Source: an uncultured Desulfomicrobium sp.
GTDB taxonomy: Bacteria > Desulfobacterota > Desulfovibrionia > Desulfovibrionales > Desulfomicrobiaceae
Reading direction: 5' to 3'
Length of the DNA stretch: 64,000 bases
NCBI GenBank assembly: GCA_937872685.1
Contig: CALMTS010000437.1
Coordinates: 42,289-106,288, forward strand
Position 1 is the first letter of the stretch; each line of letters opens with the position of its first letter. The position numbers were made by a program, and so were the translations under genes. A model generated the notes under the pieces. The model ran no database searches. It worked only from the letters and a program-made list of their open reading frames with translations, and had not been told where the DNA came from. Of the stretch, positions 19,818 to 23,676 are shown in pieces.

Positions 19818-21437
19818 TCAGATCTCCCGTATGGCCTGTGTCAGCTTGCGCTGGTCGTCCTTGAACAGCTTGTAGTTGATGGAGTCCTCCAGGGCCTGGC
19901 GGCTGGCCTCGATGATGTTGTAGGACACGCCCACCGTGGTCCAGCGGCTTTTCTGGTCGCCGGACTCGATCAGGACGCGCACCACGGACGCCGTGCCGCT
20001 GTTTCCGTCTTCGCTGACCGTTCCGGCCAGGACCCGCACCTTGAAATCCATGAGTCGCATTTCCCCCAATTTCGGGTAGAAACGCTCCAGACCCTTGCGC
20101 AGGGCACAGTCCATGGCGTTGACCGGACCCTTGCCCGTGGCGGCGGTGTGTTCGATCACGCCGCCCACGCGCAGCATGACCGTGGCCTCGGTGAACGGGT
20201 CGGCACCTTCGGTGAAGACCGAGTCCATGATGCGGAAGCTGATGACGCGGAAATAATTTCTCGCACGGCCCAGGACCCGGTTGACCAGCAGTTCGTAGGA
20301 CGCTTCGGCGGCGGAGTACTCGTAGCCCTGGTCCTCGCGGTTCTTGAGCTCCGTCAGGAGTTCCAGAACGAAGGGGTCGCCCTTGTCCAGTTCGAACCCG
20401 TACTGCTTGGCCTTGAAGAGGATGTTGGACTGCCCGGCCAGGTCCGAGAGGATGATGCGCTGCTTGTTGCCGACGAGTTCGGGTTCGATGTGCTCGTAGG
20501 TGCGCGGGTTGCGACGTACGGCCGCGACATGCACGCCGCCCTTGTGGGTGAAGGCCGACTGGCCCGTGTATGGCTGGCGCTTGAAGCAGCGCAGGTTGGC
20601 CACCTCGGAGACGAAGGCCGAGGTTCCGGTCAGGCGTTCCAGGTGCCCCTCGGGCAGGCAGGACAGGCCCATCTTCAGTTCAAGGTTGGGGATGATGGAG
20701 CAGAGGTTGGCGTTGCCGCAACGCTCCCCGTAGCCGTTGACGGTCCCCTGGACCTGTACGGCACCGTGGCGCACGGCAGCCAGGGAGTTGGCCACGGCCA
20801 GTTCGCAGTCGTTGTGGGCGTGGATGCCCAGCCGGGCGCCGGGCAACTGCGCGCGCACGGCGTCCATGATAGATGCGATCTCGTCGGGCAGGCTCCCGCC
20901 ATTGGTGTCGCACAGCACCAGGAGTTCCGCGCCGGCGTCCCAGGCCGTGCGCAGGCAGGAGATGGCATAGTCCGGGTTGGCCTTGTACCCGTCGAAGAAA
21001 TGTTCGGCATCATAGAAGAGCTCCTGCGCGTGGGGACGCAGGAAGGCCAGGGAGTCGCGGATGAGCTCCAGGTTGCGCTCCAGGGTGATCTTGAGGGCAT
21101 CGGTGACGTGAATGTCCCAGGTCTTGCCGAAGATGGTCAGGACCGGCGCCCCTGATTCCACCAGAGCCAGCAGGTTGGGATCGTTCTCTGCCGAGGATTT
21201 GGCGGCATGCGTGGAGCCGAAGGCCGCAAGCTTGGCCGTGCCCAGTTCGTACTGGCGCATTTCCGCGAAGAAACGCTTGTCTTTGGGGTTGGAGCCGGGC
21301 CACCCGCCTTCAATGTAGGCGATGCCGAGTTGGTCGAGCCGTGTGGCGATGCGCAGTTTGTCCTCGGTGGACAGGTTCAGCTCCTCGGACTGGGTGCCGT
21401 CACGCAGGGTGGTGTCGTAGATCTGGATGGTGTTCAT
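19818..21437 (-). CDS. cimA: Citramalate synthase (alpha-IPM/homocitrate synthase family)
   Basis: IYDTTLRDGTQSEELNLSTEDKLRIATRLDQLGIAYIEGGWPGSNPKD; GIHAHNDCELAVANSLAAV; C-terminal regulatory domain. Confidence 0.92.
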   Translation of the reverse strand: MNTIQIYDTTLRDGTQSEELNLSTEDKLRIATRLDQLGIAYIEGGWPGSNPKDKRFFAEMRQYELGTAKLAAFGSTHAAKSSAENDPNLLALVESGAPVLTIFGKTWDIHVTDALKITLERNLELIRDSLAFLRPHAQELFYDAEHFFDGYKANPDYAISCLRTAWDAGAELLVLCDTNGGSLPDEIASIMDAVRAQLPGARLGIHAHNDCELAVANSLAAVRHGAVQVQGTVNGYGERCGNANLCSIIPNLELKMGLSCLPEGHLERLTGTSAFVSEVANLRCFKRQPYTGQSAFTHKGGVHVAAVRRNPRTYEHIEPELVGNKQRIILSDLAGQSNILFKAKQYGFELDKGDPFVLELLTELKNREDQGYEYSAAEASYELLVNRVLGRARNYFRVISFRIMDSVFTEGADPFTEATVMLRVGGVIEHTAATGKGPVNAMDCALRKGLERFYPKLGEMRLMDFKVRVLAGTVSEDGNSGTASVVRVLIESGDQKSRWTTVGVSYNIIEASRQALEDSINYKLFKDDQRKLTQAIREI

Positions 21438-21528
21438 GGTGCTCCTGGCATGGTCCCCGGTGTTGCGCCCCTGGTGCGGAGCGGTCTGTGTCGCGGAACC
21501 GGTTGTTCGAAAATTCCCCTTGAAAGCG

Positions 21529-21560
21529 AAAAAGCCCCCGGACCTTTCGGTCGGGGGCTT
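21529..21560 (-). terminator. Attenuator terminator in the cimA leader
   Basis: Minus strand AAGCCCCCGACC-GAAA-GGTCCGGGGGCTTTTTC. Confidence 0.88.
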
Positions 21561-21593
21561 CTGGTGTGCGGATGTCCGTTTCGTACAGGCGCG

Positions 21594-21668
21594 TCACTCC
21601 CCCGATCGTGACCGGATAATCACGGAAATCAGAATAATAATGGAGATGGGGGCGGTGATGTTTTTCAT
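21594..21668 (-). CDS. Isoleucine-rich leader peptide MKNITAPISIIILISVIIRSRSGE (8 Ile in 24 residues), upstream of cimA
   Basis: ATG with AGGAA RBS; five of the Ile codons cluster in codons 10-14 and 17-18 region; terminator 33 nt after stop; cimA follows. Confidence 0.88.
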   Translation of the reverse strand: MKNITAPISIIILISVIIRSRSGE

Positions 21669-21686
21669 GTGTCGTTCCTGACTGCG

Positions 21687-21715
21687 TAGATGAACAATGG
21701 AGAATCGATTGTCAA
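21687..21715 (-). promoter_or_regulatory. Putative sigma-70 promoter for the cimA leader (TTGACA-N17-CATCTA)
   Basis: Perfect -35 hexamer, weak -10, TSS predicted about 12 nt before leader ATG. Confidence 0.5.
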
Positions 21716-21744
21716 GCGTGATCTTGGGATTTCGTGATCCGCGA

Positions 21745-22014
21745 TCACTGGGCGATCTTGATCTCCATGGCGTCAATGAACTCAAGGCCGTTGTCCTTGC
21801 CTTCGTCGCCCAGGACGATGGCCCTGCGCCCGTCCAGGCCCGAAGCGTCGATGCCGCGCACGATGTAGCTCGATGCCTCGGTCACGAGGATGGTGCCGGT
21901 GCTTGTCTCTTCCAGGATGCCGTGGACCTCGACGGTTTCGCCGGCCTGCCCGGCGGGTGGGGTTGCCAGCAAAAAGACGCCGGCCAGGGCTGTGCATGCG
22001 CACATCTTCATCAT
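21745..22014 (-). CDS. Small secreted protein with signal peptide (hypothetical)
   Basis: MMKMCACTALAGVFLLATPPAGQAGETVEVHGILEETSTGTILV... Confidence 0.65.
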   Translation of the reverse strand: MMKMCACTALAGVFLLATPPAGQAGETVEVHGILEETSTGTILVTEASSYIVRGIDASGLDGRRAIVLGDEGKDNGLEFIDAMEIKIAQ

Positions 22015-22272
22015 TCTACCTTCCACTTTCGTGTTCTCCTCAAAAATGTTCGGCCCGCAGAGTTTTCCGGACACACGTTCGGCGTCTTTGGGCGCGGGTG
22101 CGCTAGCACAAAATATGCCTTAGCTACAACGTGCCGAAATTATGGAGTTTGCGAAAGAAGGGCGGTCAGCGATGGAGAATCGGCGATTCTTTTTTTGCGC
22201 GAAGACCATGAGGGAGCGCAGATTTCGGCCTTCCGGGACGAGAACTGCCAGTTCTGTTTTGCTGAAACGGAA

Positions 22273-23676
22273 TCACAAGTTCCGCTTGGACTTGGGCCGG
22301 AAGGATTTTTTGTCGAGACGGTGCCTGGTCATGAGTTTGTGCAGCTGGCGGGTGGTGATCCCGGCAGTGTCCGCGCTCTTCTTGATGCTGCCGTTGCAGG
22401 ATTGCAGCAGGGCCCACAGGTAGCGGCGCTCGAATTCCTCGATGGCCGCGGCGCGGGCGGAATGCAGGGGCATGAGGGTGTCGGAGCGGGTTGGGGAGTC
22501 GGGCTGGGTTTCTGGCCGCAGGGCCAGCAGCTCCAGGGGCAGGCTTTCGGAGTGGATCTGGTCCGTCTCCTCCAGAATGCAGGCCCGCTCGATGATGTTC
22601 TCCAGTTCGCGGACGTTTCCCGGCCAGGCGTATTCCTGCAGGGCCCGGGCTGCGCGCGGCGCGATGCCCGTGATGTTCTTGCCCGCGTCGCGGCGGAAAT
22701 TGGTGATGAACTGTTCGGCCAGGGGCAGGATGTCCTCGACACGCTGTCGCAGGGGGGGGACCTCCACGGGAAAGACGTTAAGTCGGTAGAAAAGGTCCCA
22801 GCGGAATTTTCCCTGCTCGCACAGTACGGCCGGGTCTTCGTTGGTGGCGGCGATGATGCGCACGTCGCAGGGGATGAGCTTTTCGCCGCCCACCCGTTCG
22901 AAGGCCTTTTCCTGCAGGATGTGCAGGAGCTTGATCTGGGCCGAGGGCGTGATGGTGCCGATCTCGTCGAGAAAGATGGTTCCGCCGTCGGCCAGCTCGA
23001 ATTTTCCCTTGCGTGTCCTGGCAGCACCGGTGAAGGCCCCTTTCTCGTGGCCGAAGAGTTCGCTTTCGATGAGGGACTCGGGCAGGGCGCCGCAGTGCAC
23101 GCTGATGAACTGGCGGCTGCAGCGGGAGCTGAGCTGGTGGATGAGCTTGGCCAGATAGCTCTTGCCCGTGCCCGTTTCGCCGGTCAGCAGCACGGTGGTC
23201 CGGGTCGGGGCGACCATCTGCACCTTGCGGAAGACGTCGCGCATGCTCTGCGAGTGCGTCATGGACAGGATGTCCTGGCTCTGCGGAATCTGGCAAACCA
23301 TGCCGGCCGAGCCGTTCATTTCCAGGGCGACCCGGCTCAATGTCAGGTGGATGGAGCGTGCCTCAAGGGGCGGGAACACGGGTTCGGCATGGCATTGGCG
23401 CAGCACTCCCGTCTCTGGCAACAGAGCGTGGTCCCTGATCAGAAAAAGGATGCGGCAGGACGGGGCCCTGCCGGCAAAGCGCTCCAGGGTGTCCTGGACC
23501 GCGTCCGTGTCCGTCAGGTCGCGCAGGTCCAGGATGATGATCTCCTGGCCCGGGTGGTCGGGCGCGGTTTCGGTGGGCATGGTCCTGACCGTGGCCGTGA
23601 AATCGTCTCCGGCGGCGGAAAGGAGGAGTTCACGAATGTCCCGGTGTGCCGAATAGATGGTCAGAGGGTGCGTCAT
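22273..23676 (-). CDS. Sigma-54-dependent (NtrC family) transcriptional regulator
   Basis: LLTGETGTGKSYLAKLIH, GAFTGA, Fis-type HTH; atypical N-terminal receiver-like domain. Confidence 0.92.
   Translation of the reverse strand: MTHPLTIYSAHRDIRELLLSAAGDDFTATVRTMPTETAPDHPGQEIIILDLRDLTDTDAVQDTLERFAGRAPSCRILFLIRDHALLPETGVLRQCHAEPVFPPLEARSIHLTLSRVALEMNGSAGMVCQIPQSQDILSMTHSQSMRDVFRKVQMVAPTRTTVLLTGETGTGKSYLAKLIHQLSSRCSRQFISVHCGALPESLIESELFGHEKGAFTGAARTRKGKFELADGGTIFLDEIGTITPSAQIKLLHILQEKAFERVGGEKLIPCDVRIIAATNEDPAVLCEQGKFRWDLFYRLNVFPVEVPPLRQRVEDILPLAEQFITNFRRDAGKNITGIAPRAARALQEYAWPGNVRELENIIERACILEETDQIHSESLPLELLALRPETQPDSPTRSDTLMPLHSARAAAIEEFERRYLWALLQSCNGSIKKSADTAGITTRQLHKLMTRHRLDKKSFRPKSKRNL

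Follow-up and report, generated by a model that had tools for sequence, protein, structure and literature searches.

A probable isoleucine-responsive leader-peptide attenuator upstream of the citramalate synthase gene cimA in Desulfomicrobium and Thermodesulfomicrobium

Introduction

In enterobacteria, the ilvGMEDA, ilvBN, leu, and thr leaders sense several branched-chain amino acids, or Val/Leu, Leu, and Thr plus Ile, respectively. In these attenuators, an open reading frame (ORF) with many codons for the product of the pathway is combined with alternative helices that overlap and with an intrinsic terminator, and the structural gene is located downstream. The leader of the citramalate synthase gene cimA described here has the same parts, but differs in that it is dominated by isoleucine codons, would control cimA, and is found in Desulfomicrobiaceae.

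More distant examples are known from other phyla. The ilvBNC operon of Corynebacterium glutamicum has a translated leader (MTIIRLVVVTARRLP) with branched-chain codons, for which a three-hairpin model was described, and its transcription starts almost at the leader ATG (PMC11857589). In contrast to the putative cimA attenuator, it regulates acetohydroxy acid synthase and requires Val codons (PMC11857589). The ilv-leu operon of Staphylococcus aureus has a leucine-rich attenuator peptide, while isoleucine acts through CodY (PMC5794164); it shares with the cimA leader the principle of leader-peptide attenuation of branched-chain amino acid synthesis, although the operon is a different one. In Bacillota, T-box riboswitches at leuA and ilv genes bind uncharged tRNA directly, and a translated leader is not involved (PMC12452182). 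T-boxes also sense the amino acid supply, as proposed here for the cimA leader, and their targets include genes in the COG that comprises LeuA and citramalate synthase.

A search of the open-access literature yielded no report of a leader-peptide attenuator at cimA or another citramalate synthase gene, which does not prove absence from the literature as a whole. The mechanism is textbook knowledge, while cimA and this lineage appear to be new users of it.

Results

The leader region upstream of cimA

The window, i.e. the whole analysed stretch of 64,000 nt from an uncultured Desulfomicrobium species, contains cimA on the minus strand (19818–21437, ATG at 21437). The gene product has a score of 730.7 bits with the citramalate synthase model TIGR00977 (cutoff 450), and the scores with the LeuA, NifV, and LysS models are below their respective cutoffs. 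All elements of the leader are also encoded on the minus strand. The leader ORF (21594–21668, ATG at 21668, TGA at 21594) has 24 codons, eight of which encode Ile, its product is MKNITAPISIIILISVIIRSRSGE, and it is conserved in 18 genomes. A Shine-Dalgarno-like AGGAA (21675–21679) is located 6 nt upstream of its ATG. Further upstream lies a promoter-like block, TTGACAATCGATTCTCCATTGTTCAT (21690–21715), which contains an exact −35 element, TTGACA (21715–21710). A clear −10 element is missing from the block, and a consensus scan upstream of the leader ORF did not find a consensus −10 or a sigma-70 pair; therefore, only one half of the leader promoter is supported.

Four regions could take part in alternative RNA structures. 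The candidate region 1 (the putative protector), CCGCCCCCATCT and neighbouring nucleotides (21644–21659), can pair with region 2 according to duplex predictions and a swap test. It is followed by the putative control codons 10–14, ATT ATT ATT CTG ATT (21627–21641). Region 2, GATCGGGGG (21599–21607), lies within the final codons of the ORF, and covariation identifies it as the predicted 5′-strand of an antiterminator. Region 3, CCCCCGACC (21549–21557), is predicted by folding and covariation to be the 3′-strand of the antiterminator as well as the 5′-arm of the terminator. The intrinsic terminator, formed by regions 3 and 4 and followed by TTTTT (about 21529–21560), starts 33–34 nt past the stop codon of the leader ORF. 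It folds into a GC-rich hairpin with a bulged base and about −24 kcal/mol, and the folding z-score of the leader is −2.55. A simple terminator scan did not detect the hairpin before cimA, probably because of the bulged base.

These results bear out the description given in a preceding sequence-only reading, which had listed the −35 element, the ORF with eight Ile codons, the terminator, and cimA on the minus strand, and had suggested folding of the leader as a check. Also the two complementary stretches that it had pointed out, TCGGGGG at the end of the ORF (21605–21599) and CCCCCGA in the 5′-arm of the terminator (21557–21551), are present. An Rfam covariance-model search of positions 20000–23000 found no known leader family, no T-box, and no riboswitch, and the only three matches were below the threshold and belonged to unrelated families. 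In this respect, the cimA leader differs from the leuA and ilv genes of Bacillota.

Isoleucine content and codon choice

To assess the Ile content of the leader, we used five genes of the window for comparison. Ile accounts for 5.8% of their codons, and the probability of at least eight Ile in 23 codons is about 3 × 10−5. The two strands of the window contain 48 terminator-like hairpins, of which only that of the cimA leader comes after a short ORF containing an Ile run. The choice of codons is also different: the five genes contain 126 ATC, 14 ATT, and 6 ATA (ATT about 10%), while the 18 leaders together contain 77 ATT, 35 ATC, and 2 ATA (ATT 68%). For the leader of the window alone, the numbers are 5 ATT and 3 ATC (Fisher's P = 0.0008). 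The control codons are mostly the ATT codon that is rare in the genome; slower decoding or the need for unstructured RNA may be the reason.

Conservation in two genera

An Ile-rich ORF and a terminator are found directly before cimA in 15 of 16 Desulfomicrobium genomes and in all three Thermodesulfomicrobium genomes. In the 16th Desulfomicrobium genome, a fragmented draft, cimA was not found. The 18 leader ORFs have 20–27 codons including 4–8 Ile codons, and every leader contains a hairpin with a T-run, with predicted energies ranging from −15 to −30 kcal/mol; the leaders of G009 and G015 are identical. Hence, the Ile codons and the terminator, whose presence in orthologous leaders had been named as decisive, are both retained in 18 of 18 cases. 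The leader peptides diverge to about 30% identity. M1, I10, and G23 are invariant, I11 is nearly so, and the codon of G23 is situated in the G-run of region 2.

The 18 loci differ in the gene that precedes the leader, and therefore the leader and cimA represent the unit. In the window, the upstream ORF (21745–22074, minus strand) encodes 109 residues with a likely signal sequence and has no NCBIfam match; orthologues are found upstream of the leader at eight of the 18 loci.

The 26-nt block TTGACAATCGATTCTCCATTGTTCAT is better conserved than the leader. It is identical in four genomes (G000, G015, G009, and G012), has two mismatches in a fifth (G018), and contains the inverted repeat ACAAT-N9-ATTGT. 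A second close copy was not found in any of these five genomes, so that an operator of a wider regulon was rejected. The block may serve only as a promoter or, in addition, as an operator. At the three Thermodesulfomicrobium loci (L016, L017, and L112) the leader ATG is very near to the promoter-like block. Judging from the position of the ATG, translation of the ORF may start on a nearly leaderless mRNA in this genus, and the very short 5′-end would resemble that of C. glutamicum ilvBNC.

Alternative helices and ribosome geometry

Regions 2 and 3 are complementary in all 18 leaders. In a hand-set alignment, which comprises nine distinct arm pairs, four of the nine base pairs of the 2:3 helix are changed on both sides (G-C to C-G, U-A to C-G, and C-G to U-A). 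Pairing is possible in 91.4% of the cells of this alignment, with a covariation score of 0.309 versus 0.151 (sd 0.038) after shuffling, which does not correct for shared ancestry. An automatic alignment, which offsets region 3 of Thermodesulfomicrobium by one base, yielded modest covariation in the same direction. The antiterminator helix proposed from the single sequence therefore covaries, more weakly on the automatic alignment. When arms were swapped between species, the mean energy of the 2:3 duplex changed from −20.3 to −18.2 kcal/mol, and none of 20,000 permutations was as good as the cognate combination, a control that likewise does not remove shared ancestry. The 2:3 helix of the window itself has an A-C mismatch and, with −17.5 kcal/mol, is weaker than those of most relatives.

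Region 1, with a CCCCC immediately 5′ of the Ile run, pairs with region 2, and the fraction of permutations as good as the cognate pairs is 0.001; this region is an addition to the sequence-only reading. The 1:2 helix is dominant at equilibrium in only five of the 18 leaders, and therefore the suggestion that region 1 acts as a protector, which sequesters region 2 if the leader is not translated, is tentative.

In each of the 18 leaders, the chosen control codon precedes region 2 by 22–31 nt, and the distance from the end of region 2 to the stop codon is 2–3 nt in Desulfomicrobium and 11 nt in Thermodesulfomicrobium. The footprint of a ribosome extends about 15 nt downstream of the A site. With these distances, a ribosome stalled at the control codons would leave region 2 free, whereas a ribosome at the stop codon would cover part or all of it. 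Assuming this footprint and the occlusion of region 2, the geometry would suit control by a ribosome in 18 of 18 leaders. Folding of the RNA 3′ of a stalled ribosome, prior to the synthesis of arm 4, resulted in probabilities of the 2:3 helix of 0.87–1.00 for 17 leaders and 0.50 for one.

Pathway, distribution, and origin

No threonine deaminase above the TIGR01127 cutoff was found in nine genomes tested, and none above the TIGR01124 cutoff in the genome of the window, where the best match is threonine synthase. Therefore, cimA is probably the committed step of isoleucine biosynthesis in the source organism, and an isoleucine sensor at cimA makes sense.

For comparison, we analysed 149 further cimA upstream regions from the class Desulfovibrionia (sampled by genus), other Desulfobacterota, and Nitrospirota. 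The combination of an Ile leader and a terminator is absent from all of them. Among deltaproteobacteria, whose cimA upstream regions the sequence-only reading had suggested for alignment, the leader is thus restricted to Desulfomicrobium and Thermodesulfomicrobium rather than being widespread. In 117 of the 149 regions a lysC-like end is located at most 600 nt from cimA. ORFs with Ile runs before other cimA genes were considered and rejected: they are mostly the C-terminus of lysC, and the ORF in G159 starts with TTG and lacks a terminator. Also in the third genus of the family (G017) lysC directly precedes cimA. Five genomes of Desulfomicrobium and Thermodesulfomicrobium were checked for aspartate kinase (G000, G015, G011, G004, and G018); none has a match above the TIGR00656 cutoff, no such gene adjoins cimA, and the matches are only partial or distant.

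A covariance model of the leader, applied to 120 genomes of the order, gave strong matches (E ≤ 1e-14) only for the 18 known leaders, one per genome. Of the weaker matches (E 2e-4 to 1e-2), 14 were inspected; most are ordinary terminators, and none is an Ile leader with a terminator. A tree of 31 cimA sequences unites the 17 that have a leader in a single group (support 100/100). The simplest history is a single origin of the arrangement of leader and cimA in the ancestor of Desulfomicrobium and Thermodesulfomicrobium, together with the separation from lysC. A more detailed scenario has about even chances of being correct, i.e. that an isoleucine-only attenuator of the threonine-independent committed step arose once in the ancestor of the two genera when cimA and lysC were separated, that the rare ATT codons tune its sensitivity, and that translation of the Thermodesulfomicrobium leader begins at a nearly leaderless start.

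In four genomes, a Val-rich leader ORF (e.g. MNRITADVSVSLVVVVVVCVVMDALTL, with many GTA codons) and a subsequent strong GC-rich terminator precede a second gene for the large subunit of acetolactate synthase, about 200–120 nt before the gene (L135–L138, i.e. G000:C127, G012:C7, G009:C1, and G003:C200). This is a probable valine attenuator, as judged from its sequence, and it supports the use of leader-peptide attenuation in the lineage.

Discussion

We regard it as very probable (about 0.9) that the region is a classical ribosome-mediated, isoleucine-responsive transcription attenuator of cimA. This reading is based on the conservation of the Ile ORF and the terminator in 18 genomes, the covariation of regions 2 and 3, and the retained geometry. 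In addition, the Ile leader is unique among the 48 terminators of the window, threonine deaminases above the cutoffs are missing, the leader stays with cimA when the upstream gene changes, each genome has one strong match to the leader model, which is always at cimA, and the second acetolactate synthase gene of the same genomes is preceded by a Val-rich leader with a terminator. The central Ile codons are retained in spite of the divergence of the peptides, cognate arms pair better than swapped ones, and the 2:3 helix is predicted to form when a ribosome is positioned at the Ile codons. From a putative start, RNA polymerase would transcribe the leader, and a ribosome would translate the Ile-rich ORF behind it. 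If charged Ile-tRNA is plentiful, the ribosome would reach the stop codon and mask region 2, the 3:4 terminator would form, and transcription would stop before cimA. With scarce charged Ile-tRNA, it would stall at the Ile run, region 2 would capture region 3, the terminator would not form, and cimA would be transcribed. If the leader were not translated, region 1 may hold region 2, and termination would be favoured.

The hairpin could instead be the plain terminator of the upstream gene (21745–22074), and the Ile-rich ORF a chance frame. This small gene has the same orientation, its end lies about 185 nt upstream of the hairpin in the window, and an orthologue is found at the same place in eight loci. 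However, it is missing at the other ten loci, where the ORF, the hairpin, and cimA nevertheless stay together, a conserved promoter-like block lies between the gene and the hairpin, and the Ile codons as well as the 2:3 complementarity are conserved, so that we consider this explanation very improbable. Slightly more weight, albeit still little, can be given to the possibility that the leader controls cimA by another route, e.g. Rho-dependent or translational coupling or a protein bound to the block or the RNA, with a minor role of the Ile codons. The very strong conservation of the block at the −35 element with its inverted repeat would fit such a role, and actinobacterial ilvB leaders have been described that are attenuator-like, but in which changes of candidate codons had no effect (PMC1262725). 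Yet each cimA leader has an intrinsic terminator with a U-tract, the competing helix, which covaries, ends at the stop codon of the leader, the region has no match among known RNA families, and the single occurrence of the block per genome argues against a regulon operator. Least probable of all is a small hydrophobic peptide with a cellular function of its own and an incidental terminator. Hydrophobic peptides with many Ile residues can be located in membranes, and the leader peptide peTrpL is reported to function in trans (PMC7298713), but the length (20–27 residues) and the sequence of the peptides vary widely, while the Ile run and the RNA arm complementary to the terminator are retained.

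An isoleucine-responsive attenuator of cimA would be of practical interest because cimA is used in metabolic engineering, and a compact switch with a length of about 140 nt could be of use. For the biology of the family, it would add citramalate synthase and a family of sulfate reducers to the range of classical leader-peptide attenuation. It would also be an isoleucine-dominated sensor with an evolutionary before and after, i.e. lysC-cimA in the relatives and a free-standing, attenuated cimA here, which makes the origin of the attenuator datable and testable.
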